32,168 bases of DNA from Rhodospirillaceae bacterium. Lineage in GTDB: Bacteria; Pseudomonadota; Alphaproteobacteria; SP197. This document shows positions 23,567 through 27,272 of this stretch, piece after piece. The stretch is from NCBI GenBank assembly GCA_018700655.1, contig JABIUG010000356.1:1-32168 (forward strand). The letters are read 5' to 3'. Positions within the stretch are counted from its first letter, which is position 1. Each line of letters starts with the position of its first letter. Under the pieces are notes generated by a model, which saw only the letters and a program-made list of their open reading frames with translations, did no database searches and had not been told where the DNA came from. A program made the position numbers and the translations under genes.

Positions 23567-24646
23567 TCAAAGCAGAGCGAGCTGATCGGCGTCGGCGGCG
23601 GGTTTGACGAAGCGGGTGGTGTCGAGTTCCCAGCTCCGCTTGTCGAGGCCATAACGGCGGCAGGCTATCGCGAAACGTTTGGCGACCATATCTGCAAAGG
23701 GCCCCGTGCCTTTAAGGCGTTTGCCCCATTCGGCGTCATAGTCGCGCCCGCCGCGACAATCGCGCACCAGCGTTATGACACGACCGGCGCGGTCAGGGTA
23801 CTGGGCTTCGAGCCACTCGCGGAAGAGGTCCTTGATCTCGAGCGGCAGGCGCAACAGCACATAGCCGCCGGTTGAGGCTCCCGCATCGTGGGAGGCCTGC
23901 AGCACGTCCTCCATCTCATGGTCGTTTAGCCCCGGAATGATCGGGGCAAACATGACACCAACGGGCACGCCTGCCTTGGCAAGCGCCTCGATCGCCTTGA
24001 GCCGTTTGGCCGGTGTCGGCGCGCGTGGTTCCATGCGCCGCGCCAGGCTGCCGTCGAGCGTTGTGATGGAGATATAGGCACGGGCCAGATGCTGCTCGGC
24101 CATCGCGCTCAGGATGTCGGCATCGCGGGCAATCAGGGCAGATTTGGTGACGATGCCGACGGGATGGCGGCATTCCTGCAGAACCTCGAGGATCTGGCGG
24201 GTGATGCCGTAACCGCGTTCGATCGGCTGGTAGGGATCGGTGTTGGTCCCCAGCGCAATCACCCGTGGCCGGTAGCCTGAGCGGGACAACTCCTGGCGCA
24301 GCAGAAGGGCTGCGTCGGGTTTCATCAGGAGTTTCGATTCGAAATCCTGGCCCGGCGAGAGGCCGAGCCAGGCATGGGTCGGGCGGGCAAAACAATAGAC
24401 GCAGCCGTGCTCGCAGCCGCGATAGGGATTGATCGAGCGGTCGAACGGAATATCGGGGGAGTTGTTGCGTGCGATCACGGTGCGACTTGCATCAATCGAG
24501 ATTTCGGTCTCGAGTGGCGGAAGTTCCTCTTCGATGCCACCCCAGCCGTCGTCGAAGGCTTCGTGCGTGTGCGGCTCGAAACGTCCTGCCTGGTTGCTCG
24601 CCGCGCCGCGCCCCCGACGTTGCAGGATATGTGTTCGTTGTTTCAT
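23567..24646 (-). CDS. PA0069-family radical SAM protein (COG1533, SplB-like)
   Basis: The 359-residue protein binds a 4Fe-4S cluster through Cys78, Cys82 and Cys85 in NPYRGCEHGCVYCFARPTHAW, the radical SAM CX3CX2C motif. The GLSPGQDFESKLLMK, VIALGTNTDPYQPIERGYGITRQ and SITTLDGSLARRMEPRAPTPAKRLKAIEAL segments are diagnostic of the PA0069 group. COG1533 is often labelled DNA repair photolyase by distant similarity to spore photoproduct lyase, but the reaction of this subgroup is not established. The track start is upstream. ATG at 24646 has GGAGAG about six bases before it. A LexA-type box sits 21 bases further upstream, suggesting SOS induction. Confidence 0.9.
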   Translation of the reverse strand: MKQRTHILQRRGRGAASNQAGRFEPHTHEAFDDGWGGIEEELPPLETEISIDASRTVIARNNSPDIPFDRSINPYRGCEHGCVYCFARPTHAWLGLSPGQDFESKLLMKPDAALLLRQELSRSGYRPRVIALGTNTDPYQPIERGYGITRQILEVLQECRHPVGIVTKSALIARDADILSAMAEQHLARAYISITTLDGSLARRMEPRAPTPAKRLKAIEALAKAGVPVGVMFAPIIPGLNDHEMEDVLQASHDAGASTGGYVLLRLPLEIKDLFREWLEAQYPDRAGRVITLVRDCRGGRDYDAEWGKRLKGTGPFADMVAKRFAIACRRYGLDKRSWELDTTRFVKPAADADQLALL

Positions 24647-24667
24647 TGTTCTCTCCTCATGTGAAAA

Positions 24668-24682
24668 GAACAATAAAGGAAC
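24668..24682 (-). promoter_or_regulatory. LexA-type SOS box (GTTC-N7-GTTC)
   Basis: On the minus strand this reads GTTCCTTTATTGTTC, an exact match to the alphaproteobacterial LexA operator GTTC-N7-GTTC. It ends 21 bases before the radical SAM start and overlaps a plausible -10 (TTTATT, with TTGCCT 16 bases upstream at 24694-24699), the usual place for a repressor. It is also 58 bases upstream of the divergent glycosyltransferase start. Confidence 0.7.
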
Positions 24683-24740
24683 AAACAAATCTTAGGCAAG
24701 CCCGATACGTGGATTTCGTGAAGACGCTAGGATGGCAGCC

Positions 24741-25421
24741 ATGGAACGCCTCACGGTGATCATCCCGGCGCTCAACGCCGCAACTACGCTGAGCGTGATG
24801 CTGGACCAGTTCCTGGTCACCGCAGACGTCGATGCCACCGTGCTGGTCGTCGACAGCGGTTCGAACGATGCGACGCTTGAGATCGCAAAATCGCGCGATG
24901 TTGCGGTGATCCAGACCGAGCGTGGCCGCGGCAGTCAGATGGCTGCGGGTGGTGCAGCAGCCGACCGGCCGTGGCTTCTTTTCCTCCATGCCGATACCCG
25001 CCTGCAGGAAGGTTGGGACGGGGCGGTTGCGCGCTTCATCGCCGACACGGGCGAGTCTGATCGGGCTGCGGTGTTCCGCTTGCGGTTTGATGATCCTTCA
25101 CCGGCGGCGCGGCGGGTAGAGTGGATTGCGGCGCGAAGAAGCCGCTGGTTGGGTCTGCCCTACGGCGATCAGGGCCTCCTGATCTCGCGTGCGTTTTACG
25201 AGTCGCTGGGCGGCTTCAGGCCGTTGGCGATCATGGAAGATGTTGACATGGTGCGCCGCATTGAGCGGCGCCGCCTTGTGACCCTGTCCTGCGATGCCGT
25301 CACAAGTGCTGTGCGTTACCGCCGGATGGGCTATACCGCGCGGATGTTTAGAAACCTCCTCTGCCTGACCTGTTATTTCCTGGGGATGCCGCCGCGCTGG
25401 CTGCTGCGGCTCTACGGATGA
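24741..25421 (+). CDS. Family 2 glycosyltransferase, TIGR04283 type (rSAM/selenodomain-associated transferase 2)
   Basis: The 226-residue GT-A fold enzyme starts LTVIIPALNAATTL and has a VVDSGSNDATLEIA nucleotide-binding strand. It also has the metal-binding LFLHADTRLQEGWD and a downstream acidic EDVDMVRRIERR. The C-terminus MFRNLLCLTCYFLGMPPRWLLRLYG is hydrophobic and typical of TIGR04283. This family was named for frequent neighbourhood with particular radical SAM proteins, including arsenosugar ArsS. The track starts at 24732, but AGGA at 24729-24732 overlaps that ATG and serves as ribosome site for the ATG at 24741, so I use the latter. It is coupled to the next gene by ATGA. Confidence 0.87.
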   Translation: MERLTVIIPALNAATTLSVMLDQFLVTADVDATVLVVDSGSNDATLEIAKSRDVAVIQTERGRGSQMAAGGAAADRPWLLFLHADTRLQEGWDGAVARFIADTGESDRAAVFRLRFDDPSPAARRVEWIAARRSRWLGLPYGDQGLLISRAFYESLGGFRPLAIMEDVDMVRRIERRRLVTLSCDAVTSAVRYRRMGYTARMFRNLLCLTCYFLGMPPRWLLRLYG

Positions 25422-26011
25422 TGCGCGATCGTCATGTCGTCGTAATGGCCCGAAGGCCCGAGCACGGCAAGGTCAAGACACGTCTTGCCGATGCGCTCGG
25501 CCCGGATGCGGCGCTTTCCTTCTATGCGAGCACCTTGCGTCGCACGCTCAAGCGCCTTGGCGATGATCCCCGCTGGTCGACGGTGATCGCGGCGACACCG
25601 CCATCGGCCGCGCGCCATCCCGGCAGGTGGACCAGGGGCTTGCCGGTTTTTGCCCAGGAAGAGGGTGATCTGGGCCAACGCATGCAGGGCGCGTTTGATG
25701 CCATGCCGGCGGGGCCGGTGGTAATCGTGGGAAGCGACATTCCCGATCTCTCGGCGCGCCATGTCGCACGCGCCTTCCGGGCGCTGGAGCGTCACGACGC
25801 CGTGTTCGGCCCGTCTGATGATGGTGGCTACTGGCTGGTTGGCATTGCCCGCTCGCTGCGTGCCAGCGAGATTTTTGGCCCGGTGCGCTGGTCGACACGC
25901 CACGCGCTTGCCGACACCCTTCAGGGACTCCCCGAAGGTGCCCGCGTCGCCACGCTCGAGACCCTGGCCGATATCGACACGGTCGATGATCTCAGGCGAT
26001 TGCGCGCATGA
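25418..26011 (+). CDS. TIGR04282-family glycosyltransferase-like protein (rSAM/selenodomain-associated transferase 1, DUF2064)
   Basis: The 197-residue protein has the family pattern VVVMARRPEHGKVKTRLADALG at the N-terminus, then FAQEEGDLGQRMQGAF, the IVGSDIPDLSARHVARAF strand and FGPSDDGGYWLVGI. This is a nucleotidyltransferase-like GT-A fold that usually occurs beside TIGR04283, as here. The start overlaps the upstream stop (ATGATG), so the two are translationally coupled and probably work together on one glycosylated product. The product and acceptor are unknown. The MFS gene follows 13 bases later. Confidence 0.87.
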   Translation: MMRDRHVVVMARRPEHGKVKTRLADALGPDAALSFYASTLRRTLKRLGDDPRWSTVIAATPPSAARHPGRWTRGLPVFAQEEGDLGQRMQGAFDAMPAGPVVIVGSDIPDLSARHVARAFRALERHDAVFGPSDDGGYWLVGIARSLRASEIFGPVRWSTRHALADTLQGLPEGARVATLETLADIDTVDDLRRLRA

Positions 26012-26024
26012 ACCGGGTGGCCTG

Positions 26025-27272
26025 ATGAGCAAACCGGTGGCGGTCGATGGCGCAGCCGATGGCCTGGCGGCCTGGCGTGTTGCCCTTGCCTCGCTCCTGA
26101 TTGTCTTCTGCGGCATGGGGATCGAATACCTGCTGTGGACCAGCGTGAAGACGATCTCCGACGATATGGACTGGTCGCGCGGCACGACGTCGGCGGCCTA
26201 TGCGCTGGAAATGATCGGCACCGGTGTCGGCGGCATCCTGATGGGCCGGCTTTGCGATAAAATCGGTGCGCTGCCCGTGGTGTTGATCGGCGCCATGATG
26301 ATTCCGGCCGGTGCGTTGACGCTGACCCATGTCACGCAACCCTGGCAGTTCTGCCTGGTCTTCGGGTTGATGATCGGCTTCCTTGGCAATGCGACCCTGT
26401 TCGCACCGCTGATTACGACGGCGACGCGATGGTTCGAGCGTTATCGTGGTCTCGCGGTCGCTGTCGTGGCCTCTGGCCAGGGGCTTGCGGGTTTCATCTG
26501 GCCCACGGTCTTTGATGTCCTGATTGCCGATTATGGCTGGCGCGGCGCGCTTTTCATCTATGGCTGCTTTGCCATGGTCGCGATGCCGCCTCTGGTGATT
26601 CTGCTCAAGGGAAACCCGCCGGGCTGGAGCGCCATGCAGGCCGAACGTGTCAGCGACGACCGTTCGGCTTTCCGGATGGGCAGCCTTTCCGAGAATGTGC
26701 CCCATGCGCTGTTATGCGCCGCGATCTTGTGTTGTTGCATCGCCATGGCCATGCCGCTGGTCCACATCGCATCGCACGCGCGCGACATCGGCTACACCAG
26801 CAGCGACGGTGCCCTGCTCCTGACCTGGATCATGGGATCGTCTTTCATCGGGCGGCTTGGCATGGGTGCTTTCGCAGATCGGATCGGCGGCTTGCAGGCC
26901 ATGCTTATCGGCTCGGGCATGCAGGCGCTTGGTATCCTGATCCTGGCGCCGTTCGACAACTTCGCCGTCCTGCTTCTGGGCGCCACGGTCTTCGGGCTCG
27001 GCTTCGGGGGGCTGGTGCCGATGTATGCGGTCGCCCTGCGATCGATCTATCCGGCCAAGGGGCTGGGCTGGCGCGTCGGTGTGATCTTCCTGTTCGGCGC
27101 GACCGGCATGGCCATGGGCGGCCAGCTTGCAGGTTCCATGTTCGACTGGACCGGGACCTACCGTTGGGCCTTCCTGATCGGTTTTGCCTTCAACGTCGTC
27201 AACCTGTTCCTGATCGTGACGGTCATGACCCTGCGCGGCAGGCCCCAGCCTCTGGTCGGCACCACAGCCTGA
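26025..27272 (+). CDS. MFS transporter, monocarboxylate-porter-like
   Basis: The 415-residue protein shows 12 hydrophobic spans in two halves with the inter-domain loop around PPGWSAMQAERVSDDRSAFRMGS. The loop between helices 2 and 3 reads GRLCDKIGALPVVLIG, the MFS motif A pattern, and the second half repeats it as GAFADRIGGLQAMLIG. The N-terminal part (WTSVKTISDDMDWSRGTTSAAYALEMIGTGVGGILMG) resembles bacterial monocarboxylate or oxalate-type MFS carriers. The track start is far upstream in the glycosyltransferase. ATG at 26025 begins the homologous part, with a weak GGGTGG site. It may share a transcript with the two glycosyltransferases. Substrate unknown. Confidence 0.88.
   Translation: MSKPVAVDGAADGLAAWRVALASLLIVFCGMGIEYLLWTSVKTISDDMDWSRGTTSAAYALEMIGTGVGGILMGRLCDKIGALPVVLIGAMMIPAGALTLTHVTQPWQFCLVFGLMIGFLGNATLFAPLITTATRWFERYRGLAVAVVASGQGLAGFIWPTVFDVLIADYGWRGALFIYGCFAMVAMPPLVILLKGNPPGWSAMQAERVSDDRSAFRMGSLSENVPHALLCAAILCCCIAMAMPLVHIASHARDIGYTSSDGALLLTWIMGSSFIGRLGMGAFADRIGGLQAMLIGSGMQALGILILAPFDNFAVLLLGATVFGLGFGGLVPMYAVALRSIYPAKGLGWRVGVIFLFGATGMAMGGQLAGSMFDWTGTYRWAFLIGFAFNVVNLFLIVTVMTLRGRPQPLVGTTA

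Follow-up and report, generated by a model that had tools for sequence, protein, structure and literature searches.

A predicted LexA operator in front of a PA0069-family radical SAM gene in an alphaproteobacterium and its relatives

The locus and the repeat upstream of the radical SAM gene

The window, i.e., the whole stretch of DNA that was analysed (32,168 nucleotides), carries a PA0069-family radical SAM gene on the minus strand and, divergent from it, a plus-strand unit (24732-27272) with two 'arsenosugar' glycosyltransferase families (TIGR04283 and TIGR04282) and an MFS transporter. The features which bear on the regulation of the radical SAM gene are the following:

24668..24682, minus strand: predicted LexA operator (SOS box), GTTCCTTTATTGTTC; based on the exact motif, its conservation, and the same motif type before the genome's own lexA and the recA of relatives
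23567..24646, minus strand: PA0069-family radical SAM protein of 359 aa, with the cysteines C78-EHG-C82-VY-C85; based on NF033668, PF04055 and the predicted fold
24732..25421, plus strand: divergent glycosyltransferase TIGR04283, by family match; adjacent to the box but probably not controlled by it
24670..24675, minus strand: possible -10 hexamer TATTGT inside the box, read from the sequence; weak

The plus strand at positions 24668-24682 is GAACAATAAAGGAAC, giving on the minus strand GTTCCTTTATTGTTC, an exact GTTC-N7-GTTC and thus a direct repeat of GTTC with exactly the 7-base spacer that characterizes the operator. The repeat extends further to two 10-mers, AAAAGAACAA and AAAGGAACAA, with an 11-base period. 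The ATG of the radical SAM gene lies at 24646 on the minus strand, with the purine-rich GAGGAGAGAACA just 5' of it, and the box ends 21 bases before this start. Direct inspection hence bears out both the exact motif and its distance from the gene as given in the preliminary description of this DNA.

The box had also been described as overlapping a likely -10 element. A candidate hexamer, TATTGT, does lie inside the box, with a possible -35 hexamer, TTGCCT, readable about 18 bases upstream of it, and TATAAT-like sequences in the genus clade are commonest at offset 7, counted from where the box begins; a consensus promoter scanner, however, called no promoter anywhere in the window. Judged by eye, the box of several other families seems to cover the -35 instead, with a TATAAT-like element downstream, and outside the genus clade no single downstream TATAAT-like position is dominant among the offsets. 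The promoter layout is accordingly to be taken as a weak reading. Additionally, a third half-site, GAACAATG (window 24641-24652), lies across the ribosome site and the start codon; several close relatives also have it. With the box part 24668-24674 it forms the inverted repeat ATTGTTC/GAACAAT. The third half-site may reflect only start-codon and protein constraints. A hairpin formed by this inverted repeat was considered and rejected: it would take in the ribosome site and the start codon, and a transcript from the inferred start would lack most of the upstream arm.

Taken by itself, the bare motif is not significant in either the window or the draft genome. Its chance expectation in the window is 0.89, with at least one motif in 61 of 100 shuffles, and the genome-wide scan proposed in the preliminary description returned 119 copies versus 88 for a reversed control pattern, a result that is uninformative in the genome's own draft; in a complete relative (G009) the corresponding counts are 112 versus 28. 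A stricter form, GTTC-N4-WWTGTTC, has only two copies in the genome, the second of which lies at a site crossed by several long reading frames. Since the bare motif is near its chance frequency, the case for the box rests on conservation among genomes.

Conservation of the box and its relation to LexA

An exact GTTC-N7-GTTC is found within 300 bases of the gene in 91 of the 98 alphaproteobacterial genomes that have this gene. These comprise the genome itself with its relatives (27 of 29 with the box) and 69 additional alphaproteobacterial genomes, sampled evenly from the phylum, which form two sets with the box in 37 of 40 and 27 of 29, respectively; shuffles of the same upstream regions give expectations of 0.20 for the 40-genome set and 0.28 for the further 29-genome set. 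Each comparison set thus contains a few gene-bearing genomes that lack the exact box. A collection of 80 mostly named loci, including Agrobacterium, Rhizobium, Bradyrhizobium, Brevundimonas, Bartonella and Stella, has the box in 74; this collection partly overlaps the 98 genomes, with at least one genome shared (L256 being the same contig stretch as L039). When the spacer is varied from 3 to 15 over these 80 loci, a spacer of 7 accounts for 74, and any other length for at most 8, and the consensus of the box is GTTCTTGnWWTGTTC. The preliminary description had named a loss of the half-sites or their spacing in relatives that keep the gene as counterevidence; instead, both are retained in these 91 genomes and 74 loci. 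One locus, L315, titled Mycobacterium sp. KBS0706, has a typical alphaproteobacterial gene and box, and its title looks mislabelled.

As the box also faces the divergent glycosyltransferase pair (TIGR04283 followed by TIGR04282, 24732-26011), it might be supposed to serve this pair, or both directions. The position is as the preliminary description had it, with the glycosyltransferase start only 50 bases from the box, and the divergent arrangement recurs in the genome's own family and a few others. However, a divergent glycosyltransferase-like start is present in only 8 of 79 named loci, whereas the box is present in 74 of 80, and its GTTC reads towards the radical SAM gene. Because the box is kept where the glycosyltransferase neighbour is not seen, it goes with the radical SAM gene. 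An operator for the pair, whose genes are not seen in most loci, is hence rejected as very unlikely, although some side repression may occur at this locus.

The LexA of this genome is complete, having the DNA-binding domain PF01726, the S24 peptidase PF00717 and a score above the TIGR00498 cut-off, and the promoter of its own lexA carries the same motif type, GTTCTAGTTAGGTTC. Exact boxes also occur before lexA in 26 of 31 genomes and before recA in 9 of 10 relatives. The radical SAM consensus is matched in full by one distant lexA box, GTTCTTGTTTTGTTC. In G009, recA has the box GTTCCAAAATTGTTC, lexA is likewise boxed, and a further box lies between divergent frames read as ssb and uvrA, the latter confirmed by TIGR00630; uvrA boxes recur in several other relatives. 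A search of the genome's own draft for recA and uvrA did not find them, and the SOS circuit is judged from the relatives. Of the three genes that the preliminary description proposed to check, lexA carries the motif type in the genome itself, and recA and uvrA do so in relatives. The genome's own lexA promoter, together with the recA promoters of the relatives, supports the view that its LexA recognises the GTTC-N7-GTTC type, and the contrary suggestion, that this LexA uses another motif, did not hold.

Two further observations concern the boxes themselves. The lexA box is opposite in orientation to its gene in nearly all genomes (L063-L092, L031), with GTTCTAGTTTGGTTC as the common form, whereas the recA and radical SAM boxes read in the direction of the gene. 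Moreover, G009 has several copies of a box-like GTTCTTTCTATGTTC or GTTCATTCCATGTTC (L218, L219, L220, L222), in places beside similar repeated reading frames; these copies are possibly mobile or repeated elements with LexA-like sites.

Outside Alphaproteobacteria, none of 40 genomes of the phylum has a GTTC-N7-GTTC box before the PA0069-family gene. Instead, 29 of the 40 have an exact CTGT-N8-ACAG (0.06 expected), and 2 of the 11 left without it have TTAG-N6-TACTA, which we take to be the LexA motif of Xanthomonadaceae. According to PMC3323433, CTGT-N8-ACAG is what most LexA proteins of beta- and gammaproteobacteria recognise. Given that the GTTC boxes are replaced by other LexA motifs outside the class, SOS control appears to be kept across the operator change; the operator type would thus follow the LexA type, with the gene remaining under SOS control. 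Such persistence of LexA control despite a changing recognition sequence (three operator types) would point to strong selection for a DNA-damage response, and it marks out the PA0069 family, as yet uncharacterised, as a good candidate for a genuine DNA-repair enzyme.

These comparisons also bear on a rival reading, in which the repeat is no operator but a conserved element of the core promoter of the radical SAM gene. It does overlap the possible -10 in the genome's own genus and possibly the -35 (CTTGTTT) in several other families. Against this, the box does not seem to keep one position with respect to the promoter elements from clade to clade, lexA and recA are preceded by the same GTTC-N7-GTTC, and other LexA motifs stand in its place outside the class. 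On these grounds a promoter element alone is rejected as highly improbable. A mere chance match, for which the 0.89 copies expected in a 32-kb window and the 119 versus 88 genomic copies could be cited, has a negligible probability, given that 91 of 98 genomes, from many families, keep the exact spacing before this gene, and given the 74 of 80 loci with their spacer-length control.

What the compared genomes show directly is that the site exists and is conserved, that it matches the box before this genome's lexA, and that the operator type switches along with the LexA type; together these points make it very likely that the 15-mer is a LexA operator which represses the PA0069-family radical SAM gene. 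LexA binding and induction by damage are inferred from them along the following lines. A LexA dimer would contact the two GTTC half-sites, which lie one helical turn apart on the same face, and would thereby cover a core promoter element, here probably the -10, and block transcription. Upon DNA damage, RecA on single-stranded DNA would trigger the self-cleavage of LexA, freeing the operator and allowing the enzyme to be made.

The radical SAM enzyme

The protein matches the NCBIfam family NF033668 (PA0069 family radical SAM protein) over residues 11-359 with 527.8 bits versus a cut-off of 360, and additionally has a match to Pfam PF04055. For a structure model with a mean pLDDT of 81.5, computed from 18 family members, the best hits of a fold search are six spore photoproduct lyase structures (E ~1e-8, TM 0.5-0.6, 16-17% identity); sequence searches of the PDB with the protein did not recover spore photoproduct lyase, and the relationship was found by the fold search alone. 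On this modelled fold, the protein should work as a radical SAM enzyme of the spore photoproduct lyase fold, in which a [4Fe-4S] cluster and S-adenosylmethionine would yield a 5'-deoxyadenosyl radical. Much as in spore photoproduct lyase, this radical chemistry would most likely serve to undo or process a lesion in DNA.

Among 218 proteins, which were picked by the cluster motif and are hence informative only on the absence of a fourth cysteine, C78, C82 and C85 alone are invariant, and the next-best cysteine column reaches 36%. Spore photoproduct lyase needs a fourth cysteine as hydrogen donor, and it is this residue that the C140 mutants among the PDB structures concern. The likeness to spore photoproduct lyase (PDB 4fhc and others) therefore lies in the fold and the CX3CX2C cluster motif, and the differences in the identity of about 16% and the lack of a conserved match for the hydrogen-donor Cys140/141. 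As the fourth cysteine is not conserved, the protein should not be classed as a spore photoproduct lyase.

That the enzyme acts on damaged DNA is rather likely, judging by the fold similarity and the regulation. More speculatively, the PA0069 family could represent an SOS repair enzyme that works without light and belongs to the core of most Pseudomonadota, with a lesion or mechanism unlike that of spore photoproduct lyase given the missing fourth cysteine, its gene in many alphaproteobacteria lying upstream of, and codirectional with, that of RNase HII; this can be put forward only tentatively. With regard to gene order, 62 of the 79 loci of the named set (L257-L335) have the RNase HII signature DE[AV]GRG in a codirectional frame downstream, within about 1.3 kb, and one such frame (L291) was confirmed by NCBIfam. 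The clade of the window is without this arrangement. If the two genes are co-transcribed, RNase HII would fall under SOS control.

Earlier predictions and related systems

PA0069 of Pseudomonas aeruginosa reportedly figures in a published SOS list. Cirz 2006 is said to deal with PA0069 in Pseudomonas aeruginosa, and da Rocha 2008 and Davis 2002 reportedly concern Caulobacter and Rv2578c of Mycobacterium tuberculosis, respectively. Among the papers searched, none connects PA0069 to LexA or ciprofloxacin.

LexA control of the broader COG1533/splB group had been predicted beforehand, and the present gene is a further instance of it. A 2012 study in BMC Genomics (PMC3323433) made this prediction for splB (COG1533) of alpha- and betaproteobacteria and reports that the regulation was not observed in gammaproteobacteria. 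In a 2021 paper COG1533 is SOS-regulated in several species (PMC8565304). The preliminary description had offered SOS control as an independent hint of a DNA-damage function; the hint itself is supported, but it is not a new one in view of the 2012 prediction. Since the control had already been predicted for this enzyme group, the box is no surprise but adds support for a role in DNA repair. At the same time, the CTGT-N8-ACAG sites found outside the class suggest that LexA control of the PA0069-family gene may be wider than the 2012 paper says.

The 2012 study shares with the present analysis the broad protein group, the alphaproteobacterial LexA motif and an argument from two divergent LexA motifs. 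It treats genomes with several chromosomes and names the gene splB after spore photoproduct lyase, and its available text does not state that splB is NF033668; here, in contrast, the gene is placed in that family and tested across the phylum. Elsewhere, a radical SAM gene is likewise under LexA in Bacteroidetes (PMC8565304), in Gram-positives and Balneolaeota (PMC7739468), and in Streptomyces venezuelae, where it is within the LexA regulon (PMC9380542). These systems differ from the present one in their LexA motifs and involve other subfamilies, or a subfamily that is not stated, and have in common with it the placing of a radical SAM gene under LexA.
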